From contig MNYW01000150.1 of NCBI GenBank assembly GCA_001873295.1, positions 1 through 44,174 on the forward strand: a stretch of 44,174 bases of DNA, given 5' to 3'. The notes under the pieces were generated by a model that worked only from the letters and a program-made list of their open reading frames with translations, searched no databases and was not told the DNA's origin. Position numbers and translations under genes: made by a program. How positions within the stretch are numbered: position 1 is the first letter of the stretch; each line of letters starts with the position of its first letter. This DNA comes from Nitrospirae bacterium CG2_30_70_394. GTDB taxonomy: Bacteria; CG2-30-53-67; CG2-30-70-394. Shown one piece after another: positions 7,662 to 26,604 of this stretch.

Positions 7662-8552
7662 TCATTCCACCGCCGCCGGCGCGGCGCGGGCGGCGCGGCC
7701 GCGCAGGGTGACGCCGCCGGCGAGGCAGACAAGGGCCATGCCGGTGAGGGCGAGGGGGTTGGGGACCTCGCCCCACGCCGCCCAGCCGATGGCGCCGGCA
7801 AAGACCACCGCGAGGTAAACGAAGGGGCCGATCTGGGCGGCCGGGGCGTAGGCGTAGGCGCGGGTGAGGAAGAGCTGGCCGCCGGTAGCGAGGACGCCGC
7901 TGGCCAGCAGCGGTAGCCAGAGGGCGGGCGGCGGGGTCTGCCAGCACCAGGCGAGGGGCATGGCGGAGACGGTGGTGGCGATGAGGCCGAAGTAGAAGAC
8001 GATGCGGGTGGTGGGCTCGGAGCGGGTGAGGCGGCGGATGGCGACCATGGCGACCGCCGCCAGCAGGCCGGAGAAGAGGCCGATCACCGCCGCCGGCTCG
8101 ATGGCGTGGGCGGTGGGTTGGAGGATCAGGAGGAGACCGGCGAAGCCGATGAGCGCCGCGCCGGCGAGCGCCGGGGTGACCATCTCGCGCAGCCACACCC
8201 ACGCCACCAGCGGGATGAACAGGGGCATGGTGTAGTTGAGAAGCATGGCCACGGCGAGCGGCAGGCGGGCGAGGGCGTAGAAGAAGCAGTACATCGCCGC
8301 CAGCCCGGAGAGGCCGCGGACCAGGTGGATCGGGAATGAGGTGGTGGCGAGGTCGCGGGCGCCGCGCCGCAGGCCGTGGCGCACCAGCCACGGGGCGAGG
8401 GTGACGAGGCCGCTGGCGTTGCGGAAGAAGACCACCATCTCGTTGGGGAGGTGGTGGCCGGCGGTACGGATGCACACCCCCATGGCGGCGAAGAGCAGCG
8501 AGGAGAGGGCCACATACAGGGCGCCGCGCCGCGGATCGTGGTCAGGGACCAT
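7662..8552 (-). CDS. EamA/DMT-family inner-membrane transporter
   Basis: Predicted drug/metabolite transporter permease; the substrate cannot be told from sequence. The 296-aa protein has about ten hydrophobic helices arranged as two EamA repeats (roughly residues 10-135 and 150-285). The first repeat contains the family-typical segment FRNASGLVTLAPWL, followed by LVRGLSGLAAMYCFFYAL and LLNYTMPLFIPLVAWVWLRE. The second carries YLAVVFAGAIGWAAWGE near its end. ATG at 8552 has only a weak upstream ribosome-binding site. Its neighbours are unrelated, and a 252-nt gap separates it from lpxA, so it is probably transcribed alone. Confidence 0.85.
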   Translation of the reverse strand: MVPDHDPRRGALYVALSSLLFAAMGVCIRTAGHHLPNEMVVFFRNASGLVTLAPWLVRHGLRRGARDLATTSFPIHLVRGLSGLAAMYCFFYALARLPLAVAMLLNYTMPLFIPLVAWVWLREMVTPALAGAALIGFAGLLLILQPTAHAIEPAAVIGLFSGLLAAVAMVAIRRLTRSEPTTRIVFYFGLIATTVSAMPLAWCWQTPPPALWLPLLASGVLATGGQLFLTRAYAYAPAAQIGPFVYLAVVFAGAIGWAAWGEVPNPLALTGMALVCLAGGVTLRGRAARAAPAAVE

Positions 8553-8664
8553 GGTGGAACACGCCGCTGGGGTGAGACTGGCGCTTGGGGGATCGAGTGG
8601 CCGGCGTACCGCGCGTGCTCAGGCCGAGGTTGGTGGGCACGGCGCGCGTGGCGGTGGGCGGTCG

Positions 8665-8856
8665 CTACGGCGTGGGTTCCGGCGGCGCCGTCGCTGGCGC
8701 CTCCATCTCGGGTGCCTCCGCCGGTCCCTCGGGGGTGTGCTCCACGCCGGCGGGCTGCTCCTTCTTCTCGATCTTGCGCAGGCGCTTCTCGTCCTTCTTT
8801 TTCTTCTTCGCCAGATCCCTCTGGCGTCGTTCGAACTGGTAGTTGGTCTTGGCCAA
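8665..8856 (-). CDS. Small Lys-rich protein of unknown function
   Basis: A 63-aa protein read from a TTG start at 8856. The start is chosen because GGAAAG lies a few bases upstream and because the protein there begins LAKTNYQFERRQRDLAKKKK, a sequence type I recognise from small uncharacterised proteins of many proteobacteria. The first half is a very basic, probably helical segment (residues 7-33, almost all K/R/E). The second half is an acidic, Pro/Ala-rich tail. There is no signal peptide or membrane segment. A nucleic-acid- or ribosome-associated role is possible from the charge, but this is inference only. Confidence 0.7.
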   Translation of the reverse strand: MAKTNYQFERRQRDLAKKKKKDEKRLRKIEKKEQPAGVEHTPEGPAEAPEMEAPATAPPEPTP

Positions 8857-9042
8857 GGTGGACTTTCCGTTGGAGAAAAAGGGCGCGCCGTGAGCCGCGG
8901 CGCGTTGCGGTTCACGCAGCAGCGATTCTAGCCTTCTCGCGGTCCCCTTCGCGAGGCGCGGTGGGCGGTGGTCGATACAGGCGCGTCGATCCGTGGTAAG
9001 AACGCGCGCCGCCGCGCTCGCCGCGGCCTCGTCCGTGCCCCG

Positions 9043-11250
9043 ATGAAGCGTCCCCCGCAACGGCCCCGCTTTTCGCCGCAACGCATCGCGGTGCTGATCC
9101 TCCTCGCCCTCCTGGCGTTTGGGATCACCTTGCTCATGGCGGAGGTGCGGCGCGGCACCTTGGCGTTGCCGGTGGCGGACCGGGTGGCGCTGCTGGTGCT
9201 GGTGAACGTCGAGGTGCTGGTCATCCTCGCCCTCCTCTTTGTCCTCCTGCGCGCCCTGATCACCTACGCCTTCGAGCGCCGCCACTCCCTGGCCGGCTCG
9301 AACCTCAAGACCCGTTTCCTCCTCGCCTTTCTCCTCCTGTCGATCCTGCCGTCGCTCCTCCTCTTTGGGGTCGGCTCGATCCTCATCCATCGCTCCATCG
9401 ACAACTACTTCGCCTTCCGGATCCAGGCGCCCTTCAAGACCAAGTCGCGCGACCTGAAGCCGACCCTCGAGCAGGTGGAGCGGCTGCTGGAGCGCGAGCT
9501 GGCGGCGAGCCACGGCCGGGTGGAAGCGGCGCTGCGTGCGGTGGTCGAGCTACCCCGGCCCGAGGATGGGGGGGCGTTGGGGGGGGCGATGGCGGGGTGG
9601 CTGGCGCGCTCCGGCGTCGACGAGATCGTGGCGGTCGATGGGCACGACACGGTGGTGGCGCAGGTGGGGGCCTCCTCCTGGTTCGGGCGGGGCCGGGTGA
9701 CGCTGGAGCCAGCGCAGCTTGCGGCCGCGCGCCGCGACGGGCGCGCCGTGTGGGAGCTGGACGATGGCCGCCTGTGGGGAGCGGCGGGGGCGGCGCTCCT
9801 CCCCCTGGCAAGCGGCGAGGTGGTGGTGGTGGTGCAGGCGCGGGTGGCGGAGGAGGTGGCGGCCACCCGCGCGGGGGTGGCGGACGCCCTGAGCTCGATC
9901 GGGCGGGTGGAGCAGTACCGCGGTCTGGTGAAGGGGAGCTACCTCCTCAACCTGGCGGTAGCGACTCTGCTGGTGCTGGTGGCGGCGGTGTGGCTCGCCT
10001 TCTACCTCGCCCGCCGGATTACCGAGCCGGTCCTCCGCCTCACCGAGGCGACCGAGCGGGTGGCGGATGGTGACCTCGATGTTCGCCTCACCCCCATGAG
10101 CGGCAGCGAGATTGGCCGCCTGATGCGCTCCTTCTCGCGCATGGTGGAGGATCTGAAGCGCTCCCGCGCCGCCACCGACCGGGCCCATGACGAGTTGGCG
10201 GCATCCCTGCGCGCCTTGCAGGAGCGCAACGAGCTGATCAGCACGGTGCTGGCGAGCATCGGTTCGGGGGTGGTCTCCCTCGATGGCGAGGGGCGGGTCC
10301 TCACCCTCAATCCGGTGGCGGTCGAGATGCTCTCCCTGGCGGGGGCGGAGGCGGCGGTGGGGTGCGCCTTTGGCGAGCCCATCGCCTCCGAGGCGATGGT
10401 TGAGGTGGTGGCGCCGGTGGTTGCGGGGAGGGATGAGTGGCGCCAGGGGTATGCCACCGTCGATCGCGAGGGCAGCGAGCGGCGCCTGCGGGTCACCGCC
10501 CGGGCGCTGCATAACGAGGCGGGCGCGGCGACCGGCACGGTGGTGGCGTTGCACGATTACACCGAGCTGGTGCGCGCGCAGAAGATGGCGGCGTGGCGCG
10601 AGGTGGCGCGGCGCATCGCCCACGAAATCAAGAATCCGCTCACCCCGATCCGCCTCGCCACCCAGCGGCTGCGCCGCAAGTTCGCGCGCGGCGACGGCGA
10701 CTTTGCCGAGGCGTTCGACGAGGCGTCGCGCATCATCCTCGAAGAGGTGACCGGCCTGGAGCGGCTGGTGAGCGAGTTCTCCGACTTCTCGCGCATGGCC
10801 GAGGCGCACCTCGCCCCCGCCGACCTCCACTGCATCGTGGAAGACGCCTTCGGGCTGGTGGAGCTCGGCGGTGGGGTGGCGGTGCGCAAGGCGTTCGATC
10901 GCAACATGCCGGAGGTTCGGGTCGACGCGGCGCAGCTCCGGCGCTGCTTCGTCAACTTGCTGAAGAACGCGGTGGAGGCGATGGGCGGGGAGGGGGAGAT
11001 CACCGTCACCACGCGCTTCGATCCGATCGGGGCGGTGTTCACCGTGGCGATCGCCGACACCGGCCCCGGGATCGAGGCGAACCGGCGCGAGGAGATCTTC
11101 TTGCCGTACTTCACCACCAAGGTGAACGGCACCGGCCTCGGGCTGGCGATCGTCAAGCACGTGGTCGCCGACCACCGCGGTTATCTGCGGGTGCGCGACA
11201 ACCCGCCCCACGGCGCCATCTTCGAGATCGAACTCCCGGTCTCCGGGTGA
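9043..11250 (+). CDS. NtrY-type membrane sensor histidine kinase
   Basis: Two-component sensor kinase with the NtrY architecture, about 735 aa. It has three N-terminal hydrophobic helices (about residues 15-35, 46-70, 89-115), a periplasmic or extracytoplasmic sensor region, a fourth helix (about 305-328), a HAMP domain (RRITEPVLRLTEATERVADGDLD), a PAS domain (from ELISTVLASIGSGVVSL), a HisKA domain with phospho-acceptor His about 527 (RRIAHEIKNPLTPIR), and a HATPase domain with NLLKNAVEAM, DTGPGI and GTGLGLAIV. ATG 9043 is used; an in-frame GTG at 8968 would add 25 Arg-rich residues. In classical systems NtrX lies downstream, but here the next gene is convergent glnD, so the kinase is an orphan. 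Confidence 0.9.
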   Translation: MKRPPQRPRFSPQRIAVLILLALLAFGITLLMAEVRRGTLALPVADRVALLVLVNVEVLVILALLFVLLRALITYAFERRHSLAGSNLKTRFLLAFLLLSILPSLLLFGVGSILIHRSIDNYFAFRIQAPFKTKSRDLKPTLEQVERLLERELAASHGRVEAALRAVVELPRPEDGGALGGAMAGWLARSGVDEIVAVDGHDTVVAQVGASSWFGRGRVTLEPAQLAAARRDGRAVWELDDGRLWGAAGAALLPLASGEVVVVVQARVAEEVAATRAGVADALSSIGRVEQYRGLVKGSYLLNLAVATLLVLVAAVWLAFYLARRITEPVLRLTEATERVADGDLDVRLTPMSGSEIGRLMRSFSRMVEDLKRSRAATDRAHDELAASLRALQERNELISTVLASIGSGVVSLDGEGRVLTLNPVAVEMLSLAGAEAAVGCAFGEPIASEAMVEVVAPVVAGRDEWRQGYATVDREGSERRLRVTARALHNEAGAATGTVVALHDYTELVRAQKMAAWREVARRIAHEIKNPLTPIRLATQRLRRKFARGDGDFAEAFDEASRIILEEVTGLERLVSEFSDFSRMAEAHLAPADLHCIVEDAFGLVELGGGVAVRKAFDRNMPEVRVDAAQLRRCFVNLLKNAVEAMGGEGEITVTTRFDPIGAVFTVAIADTGPGIEANRREEIFLPYFTTKVNGTGLGLAIVKHVVADHRGYLRVRDNPPHGAIFEIELPVSG

Positions 11251-20150: not shown

Positions 20151-20708
20151 CTAGCCGCAGTCGCTACACGCCCCGTGGAGCTTGGCGAGCTCACGCTGGA
20201 GCTGGAGGGCGAAGCGCACTAGGCGCTCGCGGTCATGGTTGGTGATCTGGTCGAAGGTTGCGGCCACCCAGCGGTCGGGCGGGGTGTCGACGATGCGGAC
20301 CACCGAGGCGATCACCTCCACGATTCGTTGTGGCCGTCCCGGGAGGGCGACGGTGAGCAGGATGCGGTCGCCAACGCCAAGGCCGGCGCATGGGAAGGAG
20401 ATGCCGCACGCGGAGATCTCCACCGGGGTGCGCGGCAGGTCGTGGCGGTCGTCCCTCTCACTGGCGAGCTCGAGCAGGGTGCTCACCTTCTGATCGAGCC
20501 CCTCCAGGAAGCGCGCCACCTCGGGCTCGAAGGTTTCGGAGAGGAGGCGGCCGAGGGTGTAGTCGCCGTCGGGCGGTGGGATCGCCGCCTGCCGCCGGCT
20601 CACCAGGAGGGAACCGGATTCCCACCGCGGCCACTCGTCGCCGGCGATCTTTTGGTAGGCGAGGCCGACTTCGGCCTGGATGCGGACAAACTCACGGTTC
20701 GAAGACAT
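20151..20708 (-). CDS. PilZ-domain protein (c-di-GMP effector candidate)
   Basis: A 185-aa protein starting at ATG 20708 behind GAGGAAC, a good ribosome-binding site; the frame extends 13 codons further but without one. The N-terminal 90 residues begin NREFVRIQAEVGLAYQKI and are helical. The second half has the PilZ-like pattern DLPRTPVEISACGISFPC, then a beta-barrel-like stretch ending WVAATFDQITNHDRERLVRFALQLQREL. The first PilZ motif (R-x3-R) would be represented by R102-D-D-R or DLPRTPVEIS, and the second (D/N-x-S-x2-G) by EISACG, so ligand binding is uncertain. It sits in the minus-strand run after the flagellar genes, which suits a motility or surface role. Confidence 0.75.
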   Translation of the reverse strand: MSSNREFVRIQAEVGLAYQKIAGDEWPRWESGSLLVSRRQAAIPPPDGDYTLGRLLSETFEPEVARFLEGLDQKVSTLLELASERDDRHDLPRTPVEISACGISFPCAGLGVGDRILLTVALPGRPQRIVEVIASVVRIVDTPPDRWVAATFDQITNHDRERLVRFALQLQRELAKLHGACSDCG

Positions 20709-20793
20709 CAGTGTTCCTCGCGGATGCGGTGCGGTGGCCGCGGCCACCAGCCCTTGCCCCCTCTTCGGCAGGGGCGACTCATCCTTGAGCCAT

Positions 20794-21498: not shown

Positions 21499-21765
21499 TC
21501 ACGCGGCGTACGGTGCCGTCTCGCCCGTACCCTTGCGTGCCTCCGCCGCGAGCCGCTGGATGATCTCCGCCATCCGCTGGGTCTCGGTGACGATGCGCTC
21601 GATACTTGCCGCCATCTCCGGGTCGGCCGTGTCCATGGCGAGGAGCTCGGCATTGCCCATGACCGCGGTTAATGGCTGGTTGAGCTCATGGGCGAGACGG
21701 CGGATGGCGAGGCGGCTCTCTTCCAGCGCTGCTACCCGACTCTCCACCGCCTTGGGTCCATCCAT
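21499..21765 (-). CDS. HisKA-only mini protein (kinase dimerisation/phosphotransfer domain)
   Basis: An 88-aa protein that consists almost entirely of a histidine kinase HisKA domain: LEESRLAIRRLAHELNQPLT with the phospho-acceptor His at residue 26, then two helices typical of the dimerisation bundle (AVMGNAELLAMDT and ETQRMAEIIQRLAAEARK). No HATPase domain follows. The frame ends at 21499, and the next gene is the receiver-only regulator, so this is not an obvious frameshift of a larger kinase. ATG 21765 has a GGAG eight bases upstream. It could be a stand-alone phosphotransfer partner or the remnant of a decayed kinase. The HELNQPL form is that of DctB/FixL-type kinases. Confidence 0.75.
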   Translation of the reverse strand: MDGPKAVESRVAALEESRLAIRRLAHELNQPLTAVMGNAELLAMDTADPEMAASIERIVTETQRMAEIIQRLAAEARKGTGETAPYAA

Positions 21766-21848
21766 CGTGCAGGCTCCGGTAAGCGGCGGCCACGCCACGA
21801 TCGTGGGCCACCGGCTGTTGCGATCTGTGGCTTATCGCCAGGTGCGGC

Positions 21849-22277
21849 TTAGCAGCTCAGCCCTTCGTCCAGCGGCTCACGGTAGGTGCAGACGATGGCC
21901 GTCGCGCCACGTTTGCGGTCGACCCACTGGAGCCACCCATCGCGCAGGGATTCGAGGACGAAGAGGGCATCCTCGGCAGGGGCGGGGCTTCCCTCCTCCC
22001 ACGCCACTTGCAAGCTCTCCCGCACAAACTCGTAAAGGCGCCACAGGTTGACGGCAATCTCTTCGCCATGGGGAAAGTCGAGGGCGGTCTCCAGTTCGGC
22101 AACATGCCGATTGGCGCCAAAGAGGGGATCGAGTGCCTCGTGGCGGTTGCCGTGGGCGAGGTGGAGGATGCCGCTGCGCGCCATTTGGATTGCCTGGTCA
22201 TAGACCGCCAGGACCTGCTGGCCATGGCCGGCCCGCTCCAGACGGGTGGTGTGGTAGCTCATGGTGCGGGCACCCAT
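21849..22277 (-). CDS. Second FliS-like flagellar export chaperone
   Basis: A 142-aa all-helical protein with the FliS pattern: VLAVYDQAIQMARSGILHLA, then LETALDFPHGEEIAVNLWRL and a final LFVLESLRDGWLQWV. It is clearly related to, but much diverged from, the canonical FliS encoded at 22669-23100. The family binds the flagellin C-terminus and prevents early polymerisation; this copy could serve another export substrate. ATG 22277 lies 5 nt after the upstream gene stop; an alternative ATG is at 22262. It is the third of three chaperone-like genes in a tight row. Confidence 0.75.
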   Translation of the reverse strand: MGARTMSYHTTRLERAGHGQQVLAVYDQAIQMARSGILHLAHGNRHEALDPLFGANRHVAELETALDFPHGEEIAVNLWRLYEFVRESLQVAWEEGSPAPAEDALFVLESLRDGWLQWVDRKRGATAIVCTYREPLDEGLSC

Positions 22278-22282
22278 GGTCG

Positions 22283-22672
22283 CTATCCCCGGCGGTCGAT
22301 GTAGGCGGCGGTCGTGGGCTCAGGCACGCGGTAGCCGCCCACCGCGCGTCGTCCCTCGCTCAGGTGGGTGAGCTCGTCGGCGAGCCGCTGGAGGTACCGC
22401 TCCAGGTGGAGCTGGTTGTTTTGGTCGCACGCCGCGATGCGTGCCATCGATGCCCGCATCTGGCGTGCCGCCACGGGCTCCACCTCTCCGGTTGCGGCGA
22501 GGAGGGCACACGTCTCGGCGACCTTGCGGGTGAGCTCCTCGCGCTGCCGGCGCAGGAGCCAGATGGCGTCGTACTCGACTTCGTCGATCGCCACGGCCTC
22601 CTCCAGGACCAGCGAGTGGATGTGGGCGAGGAGCTCGGCGCACGCGCTGGCTGGGTCGAGAACGGTGCTCAT
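22283..22672 (-). CDS. FlgN/FliT-like flagellar chaperone (probable)
   Basis: A 129-aa, wholly helical, heptad-rich protein. It has the layout of FlgN/FliT-type export chaperones: an early helix pair with LLRRQREELTRKVAETCALL, a second with NNQLHLERYLQRLADELTHL, and a tail GGYRVPEPTTAAYIDRRG. Family assignment rests on length, helical content and its place between two FliS genes downstream of fliD, where FliT is usual. Its start overlaps the canonical fliS stop by 4 nt (22669-22672), so it is translationally coupled. Confidence 0.6.
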   Translation of the reverse strand: MSTVLDPASACAELLAHIHSLVLEEAVAIDEVEYDAIWLLRRQREELTRKVAETCALLAATGEVEPVAARQMRASMARIAACDQNNQLHLERYLQRLADELTHLSEGRRAVGGYRVPEPTTAAYIDRRG

Positions 22673-23100
22673 CCGGCCACCACCGAGAGGGTCAGGCGGG
22701 TGGGCTCTGCCTGGCTCGACCGTCCCTGCGCACGGACCTGGCGTACCGCTTCACCCCACCCCTCGCGCAGGGTTTCGAGGACCGGGAGGATCGCTTCCAA
22801 CGGCGTTGCGGATCCCTCCGCGTTCGCCTTGGTGTAGCTCTCCAAACAGAAGAGGTAGAGGGCGGCGAGGTTGTCGGTGAGCTGTGCGTCGATTTCATGA
22901 TCGAGGGTCGCGTGGAGCTCGGTGATGATCGCCACCGCGCGCGAGATCGCCTCGCACTTGGCCGGGACGTTATGCGCCGCGATCGCCGCGATCGCCTGCC
23001 GGGTGAAGCGCAGGGCGCCGTCATAGAGCATCAGGAGGAGCTCGCTGCGATCGGCGGTGTTCGTCTGCGTCTGGCGGTAGGTGTGGTAGCCAGTGGTCAT
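22669..23100 (-). CDS. fliS: Flagellar secretion chaperone FliS
   Basis: Cytoplasmic chaperone that holds newly made flagellin and delivers it to the flagellar type III export gate. 143 aa. The N-terminal Y-x-x-Y-type start (MTTGYHTYRQTQTNTADRSE) leads into the hallmark LLLMLYDGALRFTRQA, then DHEIDAQLTDNLAALYLFCL and a final helix VLETLREGWGEAV. It follows fliD after 37 nt and overlaps the next chaperone gene by 4 nt. Confidence 0.93.
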   Translation of the reverse strand: MTTGYHTYRQTQTNTADRSELLLMLYDGALRFTRQAIAAIAAHNVPAKCEAISRAVAIITELHATLDHEIDAQLTDNLAALYLFCLESYTKANAEGSATPLEAILPVLETLREGWGEAVRQVRAQGRSSQAEPTRLTLSVVAG

Positions 23101-23137: not shown

Positions 23138-24535
23138 TTACTTGCCGGTGCGGATGGCCGGTAGGTTGCTGAGGGCCTGGAGGAGTGAGTCGCCCTGGGT
23201 CTTCAGGTTGTTCACCAGCAGCTCGAGCTGCGCGTACTGCTTGGTGACCTGTTGTTTGTAGGCATCGATGCGGGCCTCGGAGGTGGTGATCTGTTGGTTG
23301 ATACGCTTGACGTTGGCGCCCAGCCCCTCGGTCCGTCCGTGGATGGCGCCGGTGATGGGGTCGGTGAAGGCCTCGACGGCGGTTGCGATCTGCCCGAAGA
23401 CACCGTGGGTGGTGGTGCCGTCGCCGCGGATGACCTCTTCCACCGTCGCCTTGTCGGTCTCGATCGCCCCCCGCAAGACCGAGGCGTCGAAGGAGAGACT
23501 CCCGCCATTGGTCATCCGCACGCCGAGAGCGGAGAGCGACTGGATCGAGCCGCTGCCGTGGCCGAGGCTGAGGACCGTGGAGTTGAGGCGCGAGACGACC
23601 GAGCGGAGGGTGAAGTCGCCGGCCAACACGCCCGGTTGATTCACATTGTTGTGGGCGGCATTGAACTGGGCGATCGCGTTGAAGGCATCGACAAAGGTGG
23701 AGAGTTTCGTCTCCAGGGGCCCCGTCGCCTCCTTCACGGTCACTGTGGTCGGGGTGGTGCCGCTCGTCCCGACCAGGTCGATGGTCGCGCCGGGGATCGC
23801 GTCGGTGACCGTGTTGGTGGCGCTGGTGATGGCGATGCCACTCACCGTGAGCTGCGCGTCGAGCGCCGCCTGGGTCTCGGTGAGATTCGCGTTGATCAGG
23901 CGCGACAGGCCGGCGTTGTCTGTGTCATTGGCGTCGCCGTCGCCGGTCACCGAGAGGGTCGCGGCGTTGGCGGTGCCGGTGGTGTTGGCGGTGATCACCA
24001 GGCGATACGGGCTGGCGCTGCCGTCGTTGACGATCGCCGCGGTGACTCCGGCATTCGCGTCATTGATTGCGTCACGCACCCCGGCCAGGGTGTTGTTGGT
24101 GGAGTCGATGGTGATGTCGACCGCCGGACCGCTGCCGATCTGGATGGCGAGGGTGCCGGTGCCAACGGCGGTGGTGTCGGTGTCCGCGAAGGCGGAGGCG
24201 GCGGTGGTGAGGGTCTGGGCGCGGGCGAGCTGGGTGACGTCGACGGTGTAGCTGCCCGCGGGGGTGGTGTTGGTCACCGACACCGCGACCGCGCCGGCGC
24301 TGGTGGCAACTGCGGTCCGCCCGAGGAGGGGGTCGCTCGTCTCCTGCAGGGCGTCCGCCGCGTCCTGCACCGCCTTCACCAAGGTGTTGAGCTTTTGCAG
24401 GGCGCTGACCTGGTTCTGGAAGCCGGATCGCCGGATCTGCAAGCGGTCGATGGGGATGCGCTCCGCCTGCACCAAGGCGTCGATGATCGACTGGGTATCC
24501 AGGCCGGTGACCAGCCCCCCGACGCTGATGGTCAT
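23138..24535 (-). CDS. fliD: Flagellar hook-associated protein 2 (filament cap) FliD
   Basis: Forms the pentameric cap at the filament tip that folds incoming flagellin. 465 aa. The N-terminus VGGLVTGLDTQSIIDALVQA is the diagnostic FliD start, followed by a coiled-coil region (RIPIDRLQIRRSGFQNQVSA). The middle is a Thr/Ala/Asp-rich variable domain, and the C-terminus returns to conserved heptads: GLGANVKRINQQITTSEARI and QLELLVNNLKTQGDSLLQ. The Thr/Ala-rich centre is typical of the surface-exposed part. Its start is 1-2 nt from the flaG stop, so the genes are co-transcribed. Confidence 0.95.
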   Translation of the reverse strand: MTISVGGLVTGLDTQSIIDALVQAERIPIDRLQIRRSGFQNQVSALQKLNTLVKAVQDAADALQETSDPLLGRTAVATSAGAVAVSVTNTTPAGSYTVDVTQLARAQTLTTAASAFADTDTTAVGTGTLAIQIGSGPAVDITIDSTNNTLAGVRDAINDANAGVTAAIVNDGSASPYRLVITANTTGTANAATLSVTGDGDANDTDNAGLSRLINANLTETQAALDAQLTVSGIAITSATNTVTDAIPGATIDLVGTSGTTPTTVTVKEATGPLETKLSTFVDAFNAIAQFNAAHNNVNQPGVLAGDFTLRSVVSRLNSTVLSLGHGSGSIQSLSALGVRMTNGGSLSFDASVLRGAIETDKATVEEVIRGDGTTTHGVFGQIATAVEAFTDPITGAIHGRTEGLGANVKRINQQITTSEARIDAYKQQVTKQYAQLELLVNNLKTQGDSLLQALSNLPAIRTGK

Positions 24536-24536
24536 C

Positions 24537-24917
24537 TCACGCCACCTTTTCGAAGAGGACGCCGCGCATCTGCTCCATATGCTTGGCCAGCGCGAGGAAT
24601 ACGTCGGGCGGGATTTGGCGAATCGTCTCGCCAGTGGCGCGGTCGCGAATGGTGATCACCTGATGGCCGGTCTCTTGGTCGACCCGGAAGTTGACCGAGC
24701 GATTGAACTGGGCCATGGCCGCGTCCAGGGCCTGCGGCGCGGCCGACGAGCGGGGTGTTGCCCCCCGTTGGCCCGTGGTGGCGGCAGACCCGAGGCCATC
24801 GATCATGGTCCCGAGGTCGCCGGTGTTGAGGCTTACCTGCGGTCCGCCGCCTGCCCCCGGTGTCATGGCGGCGGAGGGGCGTGGCTGCGGGTAGGCGATG
24901 GTGCTGATGTCAGCCAT
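24537..24917 (-). CDS. flaG: Flagellar protein FlaG
   Basis: Small protein encoded beside flagellin and FliD in many polar flagellates; loss affects filament length in several species. 126 aa. The first half is a low-complexity linker. Residues about 75-126 are the FlaG domain, with NFRVDQETGHQVITIRDRAT and IRQIPPDVFLALAKHMEQM, which are the conserved features. The ATG at 24917 has AGGGGTGA upstream. A strong hairpin separates it from fliC. Confidence 0.92.
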   Translation of the reverse strand: MADISTIAYPQPRPSAAMTPGAGGGPQVSLNTGDLGTMIDGLGSAATTGQRGATPRSSAAPQALDAAMAQFNRSVNFRVDQETGHQVITIRDRATGETIRQIPPDVFLALAKHMEQMRGVLFEKVA

Positions 24918-24982: not shown

Positions 24983-26503
24983 TTACTGGAGCAGGGAGAG
25001 GACCGACGACGGCAACTGGTTCGCCTGGGCGAGGACCGAGATGCCGGCCTGCTGCAGGATCTGGTTCTTCGTCAGGTTCGAGGTCTCGGCCGCGAAGTCC
25101 GCGTCCTGGATGCGGGAGCGGGCGGCGGAGACGTTTTCGGTGACGTTCTGCAGGTTCGAGATGGTGGAGGTGAACCGGTTCTGGATCGCGCCCAGGTCGC
25201 CTCGCACCGAGTTGACGAAGGAGAGCGCCGCGTCGATGACGTCCAAGGCGGAGTTCGCCCCGGACTGGGTGCCGATGTTGACGTCCGAGACCTTCGACAG
25301 GCTGGAGCCCACCGCGGTGCTCGCCGCAGCGGCCACCAAGGAGCCGGAAGCGGCAGCCACGGAGGAGCTCATGGAGAAGGACTTCTGCGACGCCAGGGTG
25401 ACCGTGCCGCCCACCACCGAGCTGTCCGTGCTGGTGGCACCGCCGAGGGTCTGGCTCGTGGCGTCCGAGTTGTCACCGGTGAACTTCAACGTGCCGGTGC
25501 TGGCGATGAGGACGTCTTGGATGGCGATGTCCGCACCGTTGCTGTTGGTCAGCGTGATGCTGTCACCACTGCGCTCGGCGACGATGCCAGTGGTGGAAGA
25601 GACGTCGTTGATCGCCTGGACCAGGGGATCGAGGCCGGTGCCACTGCCGGTGGTGGAAGCGGAGATGGAAACGAGGGTGCCGTCGTCACCGGCGATCTTG
25701 AAGGTGGTGGCGCCAGTGGAAATGGTGGACAGGGTGGCCACCGTCGAGGCGGTGGCGGTGACCCCGGTGGTGGAGGTCTTGTCGTTGATCCCGGTGGCGA
25801 TGTCGGCTGCGCTCTCCCCGAGGGTGACGGCCACCGTGTCCTGGCCGAGATTGCCGGAGATGGTGAGGGTCTGGGCGGTGATCCGGTTAGCGGTGGTCAC
25901 CGTGGAGCCAGAGCCGCCGTTGACGTTCGCCGCCGCGGCGACCGCCGAGTTGATACCGGAGACGTTTGCCGAATCGCCGGTCACCGAGTTGTTGCCGATG
26001 GTGTTGGCGGCGGTGTTGCCGATCGAGATGTTGATCGTCTGGTTCGCCCGGAACCCCACCTGGAACTTGGCGTTGGTGAAGGTGCCGTCGAGGACCTTGG
26101 TGCCGTTGAACTCGGTGGTGGACGAGATGCGGGTCATCTCGCTTTGGAGCTGGGTGACCTCGGCCTGGAGGGAGGCGCGGTCAGAGCTCGAGTTCGTGTC
26201 GTTCGCCGACTGGACCGCCAGCTCGCGCATCCGCTGCAGGGAGTTGGTCACCTCCTGGAGCGCGCCTTCTGCCACCTGCGCGACCGAGATGCCGTCGTTC
26301 GCGTTGCGGATCGCCTGGTCGAGGCCGCGGACCTGGGAGGTCATGCGCGAGGAGATCGCCAGCCCTGCGGCGTCGTCCTTGGCGGAGTTGATCCGCAAAC
26401 CGGACGAGAGTCGCTGGAGCGCCGAGCTGACGCCCATGGCCGACTGGTTGAGGTTGCGCTGGCCGTTGAGGGCCAGCAGGTTCGTGTTGACTGCGAGTGC
26501 CAT
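24983..26503 (-). CDS. fliC: Flagellin
   Basis: Structural subunit of the flagellar filament, exported by the flagellar type III system. About 506 aa. The N-terminal D0/D1 region is canonical: [40 protein letters not shown] and [20 protein letters not shown]. The C-terminal D1/D0 is [20 protein letters not shown] through to [13 protein letters not shown]. The Thr/Ser/Gly-rich centre (residues about 170-410) is the variable surface domain, rich in possible O-glycosylation sites. ATG 26503 follows a strong GGAGGAAAG site, and the frame's upstream extension is ignored. It is transcribed from a sigma-28-type promoter at 26605-26631. Confidence 0.97.
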
Positions 26504-26604
26504 GGGACTTTCCTCCGTGGAAAGTGCGGGTCTGTCCGACCCTAGGGTTGGGGCGGGCATCCTGCACCGCCACTGGTCTTACCGGGTTTTTCCGGTAGCC
26601 AGCG

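Follow-up and report, generated by a model that had tools for sequence, protein, structure and literature searches.

A DHp-Only HisKA Protein in a Flagellar Filament Gene Cluster of Nitrospirae as a Candidate Phosphotransfer Protein

Between flagellar chaperone genes and the gene of a receiver (REC) protein, the window (the whole 44,174-nucleotide stretch of DNA analysed here, from Nitrospirae bacterium CG2_30_70_394) codes for an 88-aa stand-alone HisKA protein. As the preliminary description of this DNA had proposed, it has a phospho-acceptor histidine, His26, and lacks an ATP-binding domain. Its gene is under purifying selection. We give about half of our confidence to the reading, drawn from sequence comparison and predicted structure, in which the protein would be a working DHp-only, HPt-like and lineage-specific phosphotransfer protein for the adjacent REC protein.

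Results

A HisKA Domain without a Catalytic Domain

The gene starts at the ATG at position 21765 of the minus strand; an in-frame GTG at 21798 is an alternative start that would extend the product to 99 aa. The Pfam scan matches PF00512 over residues 21–79 with 51.6 bits, against a curated cut-off of 26.9 bits. Numbered from the ATG, the H-box reads H26-E-L-N-Q-P-L. From His26 to the C-terminus there are 62 residues, the last being ETAPYAA, and neither HATPase nor Hpt (PF01627) has a Pfam match in the protein or at its place in the genome.

The AF2 model of the protein, made from a two-row alignment (pLDDT 86.7), is a two-helix hairpin (residues 4–44 and 49–80). Its Foldseek matches in the PDB are the DHp domains of ERS1, CpxA, GacS, and ZraS, and also the RetS–GacS DHp complex; the TM score to the ERS1 DHp domain is 0.76 and the Foldseek probability about 1, with weak E-values (best 0.02), as expected for a hairpin. 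The structure prediction that had been advised for both proteins thus gives a DHp-like hairpin for the HisKA protein and a receiver fold for its neighbour.

The genome assembly contains 38 HisKA matches, 36 of them above the Pfam cut-off, and among these 36 the 88-aa protein is the sole one without a HATPase in frame or nearby. A sub-threshold match (L145, G000:C50:20157-20318; 22.7 bits) lies in a 500-aa frame without a HATPase match and with a REC domain nearby. The Hpt domains found in the genome lie in four large proteins of 646–1114 aa, two of which carry HisKA (C45), and the Hpt scan of the genome found no small Hpt-only protein. Because the Hpt domains are found only in large proteins, a DHp-only protein could fill the role of a free HPt.

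Table 1. Features of the flagellar filament cluster and adjacent genes
Feature	Coordinates	Strand	Evidence
Flagellin	24983..26560	-	translation; match in G001
FlaG	24537..24917	-	PF03646, 4e-17
FliD filament cap	23138..24535	-	translation; flagellin-FlaG-FliD-FliS order kept in G001
FliS flagellar export chaperone	22669..23100	-	PF02561, 3e-34
FliT-like flagellar protein	22283..22672	-	PF05400, E 0.0045, below cut-off; orthologue in G001
Second, divergent FliS-like flagellar chaperone (FliS2)	21849..22277	-	PF02561, 5e-15
88-aa stand-alone HisKA (DHp-only) protein, phospho-acceptor His26	21499..21765	-	PF00512, E 1e-13
214-aa receiver protein: REC with D58, long alpha5 helix, linker, C-terminal helices	20794..21438	-	PF00072, E 5e-25
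Divergent PilZ-like protein	20151..20747	-	PF07238, E 0.076, below cut-off; class relative 7.7e-10

The Locus

The minus-strand order is flagellin, FlaG, FliD, FliS, FliT-like, divergent second FliS, HisKA, REC, PilZ-like, and sugar epimerase (Table 1), and gaps of 83 bp (FliS2 side) and 60 bp (REC side) flank the HisKA gene. Sigma-54 sites were not above chance, no sigma-70 promoters or minus-strand terminators were found, and an Rfam search gave no match. In the genus, two FliS paralogues flank the FliT-like gene; in the sister family, a single FliS match was found in three genomes and none in three.

The placement of a PilZ-like gene next after REC, with flagellar chaperones upstream, stands as first described. 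The PilZ-like protein itself reaches 13.8 bits, below the PF07238 cut-off of 22.5, whereas a class relative at the equivalent place reaches 39.5 bits. It keeps the RxxxR motif and has ExSxxG in place of N/DxSxxG (NLSGGG in class relatives), so that its binding of c-di-GMP may be altered.

Conservation and Selection in the Genus

The source genome was compared with one genome of the same genus (G001), giving two orthologues in total. The G001 orthologue also has 88 aa, with 68% identity, and lies among the same neighbours in the same order and with similar spacing (gaps of about 75 bp on the FliS2 side and 72 bp on the REC side), as the suggested check of synteny revealed. Both proteins share His26 and the H-x-L-N-Q-P-L-T-A-V box. 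The H-box is HELNQ in the source protein and HDLNQ in G001, the residue after the histidine being E27 and D, respectively, and His+4 is Gln in both. The H-box region (residues 26–45) is identical at 17 of 20 positions, versus 43 of 68 elsewhere, a difference that is suggestive only (p 0.05; two orthologues). The dN/dS of the HisKA gene against G001 (Nei-Gojobori) is 0.28, similar to those of FliT (0.30) and PilZ (0.26); REC has 0.19 and both FliS have 0.16, and dS between the source genes and those of G001 is 0.6–0.7. An orthologue of the same length in the same context, together with purifying selection, confirms that the gene is real and more than a chance open reading frame.

The preliminary description had pointed to a lost histidine, or to a full-length kinase with a frameshift here, as signs against its proposal. 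His26 is retained in the one orthologue, and no relative examined has such a kinase at this place. A frameshifted kinase in the source genome was likewise rejected, as only 60 bp separate the HisKA stop from the REC start.

The Receiver and the Sister Family

Residues D14, D15, D58, T86, and K108 of the REC protein are invariant in five aligned class sequences. Its AF2 model shows a normal receiver domain with a long alpha5 helix (residues 112–142), then a low-confidence linker and C-terminal helices. The tail had been described as 60 residues that are not a known output domain; the second part holds, Pfam giving no output domain in the 214-aa protein, and the length must be corrected to about 95 residues (120–214). 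A SHOCT-like end of this tail was considered and set aside, since it appears in just one relative and below threshold (E 0.16).

The phylum sample consists of eight genomes, two in the genus and six in the sister family. The HisKA gene is absent from all six sister-family genomes, and a single-sequence scan of the genome contigs with the 88-aa protein found no relative. Orthologues of REC, with an added coiled coil, occur in four of the six; identity is 39–40% overall (three aligned) and 48–52% over the REC domain (all four). In three of these four (L055, L057, L058), REC is directly followed by a REC-GAF-HD-GYP gene and then by PilZ, and in the fourth (L056) the HD-GYP gene is the last on its contig. 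The motifs of the HD-GYP domain are HDIGK, HHE, and GYP in L055, L056, and L057, the third being AGYP in L058. The REC-GAF-HD-GYP frame of L058 (about 7763–9300, G003) has one in-frame TAG, either a sequencing error or a broken gene. An NtrC-type partner had been guessed in these relatives from length and was discarded on the Pfam result of REC-GAF-HD-GYP. FliD–FliS lie upstream of REC on the same contig in two genomes, at about 4 kb (G007) and 12 kb (G002). The two genus genomes have no HD-GYP orthologue, showing partial domain matches only.

The position of REC beside HD-GYP and PilZ genes in the sister family supports a c-di-GMP setting. As judged from these gene orders, REC has long belonged to a c-di-GMP-linked neighbourhood, and in two genomes it lies near flagellar genes. 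Because the sister family keeps REC without the HisKA protein, REC does not need this protein in general. The simplest account of the HisKA gene is that the source genus gained it later, with loss in the other family as the alternative.

Discussion

A Candidate Histidine–Aspartate Relay

In the reading we prefer, the 88-aa protein would dimerise into a four-helix bundle, in which His26 would take a phosphoryl group from the receiver of a hybrid kinase, or from the ATP-binding domain of another kinase in trans, and hand it on to D58 of REC, whose gene begins 60 bp further downstream. Once phosphorylated, REC would use its long helix and C-terminal tail to act, probably on partners with a flagellar or c-di-GMP role; this link of the output is probable by gene location only. 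We infer the partner, the direction, the output, and the phosphotransfer itself. The relay is favoured because REC keeps the phosphorylation residues and because the same class has fusions of REC with a HisKA that lacks a catalytic domain (G004, G006). The minimal phosphotransfer module of the preliminary description is supported at the level of sequence, where His26, the DHp fold, the REC neighbour, purifying selection, and the HD-GYP and PilZ genes of the sister family all agree with it.

The H-box offers a further indication. In an alanine scan of CrdS, kinase activity was assigned to the acidic residue after the histidine and phosphatase activity to Thr/Asn at His+4; an Asn-to-Gln change at His+4 abolished the latter, leaving none measurable (PMC3510030). 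By analogy, Gln at His+4 would favour transfer over dephosphorylation, and with the acidic residue kept, phosphorylation in trans by a CA domain is no less possible than an HPt-like role.

In a wider form, which we advance tentatively and hold to be wrong rather than right, one genus would have acquired, within its flagellar filament cluster, a dedicated minimal His-Asp relay of DHp-only protein and REC, through which a c-di-GMP-linked receiver of long standing is supplied with phosphate. The relay would then exemplify a wider practice, so far little described, in which catalytic-domain-less HisKA proteins carry out phosphotransfer in place of HPt domains. If the relay is true, selection can preserve a DHp alone, of 88 residues, for phosphotransfer, a single lineage can recruit a DHp-only protein to an existing receiver, and the pair is a small and clean system in which to test a DHp without its kinase.

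Other Roles for the Protein

The DHp-only protein might instead form heterodimers with a full-length kinase, or be phosphorylated by one in trans, and so modulate that kinase. The precedent is RetS, whose ATPase domain is degenerate and which controls GacS by several protein–protein mechanisms (PMC5992135), and both the RetS–GacS complex among the PDB neighbours and the retention of the acidic residue required for autokinase activity (E27; D in G001) agree with such a role. However, a neighbouring kinase gene is absent, the conserved neighbour being REC, and RetS has a receiver domain of its own (PMC5992135) that the 88-aa protein lacks. We regard this role as unlikely.

That the protein dephosphorylates the adjacent REC, or serves it as a phosphate sink, seems to us quite unlikely. 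HisKA domains can dephosphorylate their cognate regulators (PMC3510030), and D58 could return its phosphate to His26; yet both orthologues have Gln at His+4, the substitution that abolished phosphatase activity in CrdS, a separate HisKA protein whose H-box differs (PMC3510030). We judge it improbable that the protein serves the flagellar cluster as a helical, structural adaptor whose histidine is out of use: it is a simple helical hairpin near small chaperones, FliS and the FliT-like protein, but the H-box is its best-kept stretch, with the full H-x-L-N-Q-P-L retained. FliS and FliT-like chaperones are helical. A decayed histidine kinase remnant, the alternative that the preliminary description had offered, is very improbable and already largely refuted, for although the HisKA domain is of the kinase type and falls among those of full kinases in a weak tree, the length, stop, neighbours, and spacing are the same in a species at dS of about 0.7, dN/dS is like that of the neighbours, His26 is kept, and no relative has a kinase at this place.

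HisKA Domains without Catalytic Domains Elsewhere

P2CS files HisKA-only (or HPt-only) proteins as phosphotransfer proteins (PMC2716373). In a later survey of about a thousand phosphotransfer proteins, which took in HPt-only ones, those encoded in gene pairs had a response regulator as partner in 85% of cases (PMC3018481). An earlier census had noted HK-like proteins lacking HATPase in Archaeoglobus (PMC1183210). Hence, the HisKA-only architecture is already a known kind. The 88-aa protein has the architecture by which the P2CS class is defined (HisKA, without HATPase or receiver domain) and differs from it in nothing, its function being putative; its gene also adjoins that of a response regulator.

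Spo0B and ChpT, both dimeric, are histidine phosphotransferases with the build of a kinase core, including a degenerate ATPase-like domain. The 88-aa protein would resemble them in using a DHp-type dimer as an HPt; unlike them, it has no ATPase-like domain, ending 62 residues past the histidine. The locus also recalls the flagellar two-component pair FlrB–FlrC / FleS–FleR in that a histidine and receiver gene pair lies just after fliD–fliS, whereas here the histidine protein has no ATPase domain and the receiver has neither an AAA nor a DNA-binding domain.

Searches with two- and three-sequence profiles found, across many genomes, numerous HisKA domains that are not followed by an ATPase domain, a set gathered by similarity to the queries and therefore no census. 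The forms include stand-alone proteins of about 85–100 aa (L177–L181, L116), REC-HisKA, PAS-HisKA (by reading of the sequence), and one HisKA-REC. Many further ones are long proteins with HisKA at the very C-terminus, mostly in Myxococcota and other deltaproteobacterial records.

A tail motif, Y-x-T-x-x-Y...I-x-DL, beginning 50–55 residues after the histidine, is present in 38 of 53 other catalytic-domain-less HisKA proteins and in none of 105 full kinases that the same search gave. Its fuller form is Y-x-T-K-x-Y...I-x-DLD, about 53 residues past the histidine (L062, L064, L073, L184, L193, L194, L196, L197, L198, and others), and no description of this family was found in the literature searched. 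By their sequences, the tail-bearing proteins may make up one coherent phosphotransfer family that spans Myxococcota and other groups; the shared tail suggests that such proteins, though they lack a catalytic domain, form a genuine functional class rather than being broken kinases. The 88-aa protein shares with them an H-box of the HELNQPL type, the lack of HATPase, and an end soon after the second helix, but it has no tail, ending before the motif could form, and stands apart in the weak tree. Its membership in the family was considered and rejected: ETAPYAA resembles the TKPYAAG of L188 but is out of register and has F in G001, and neither the tree nor the profile scores favour it.

In five genomes from the phylum of G060, a stand-alone HisKA protein of about 90 aa (L177–L181) is encoded beside a ligA-like gene. 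Like the 88-aa protein, it is a minimal HisKA-only protein, conserved over several genomes; it differs in its H-box (HELAQPL or HALAQPL), in having no adjacent receiver gene, and in its non-flagellar locus.
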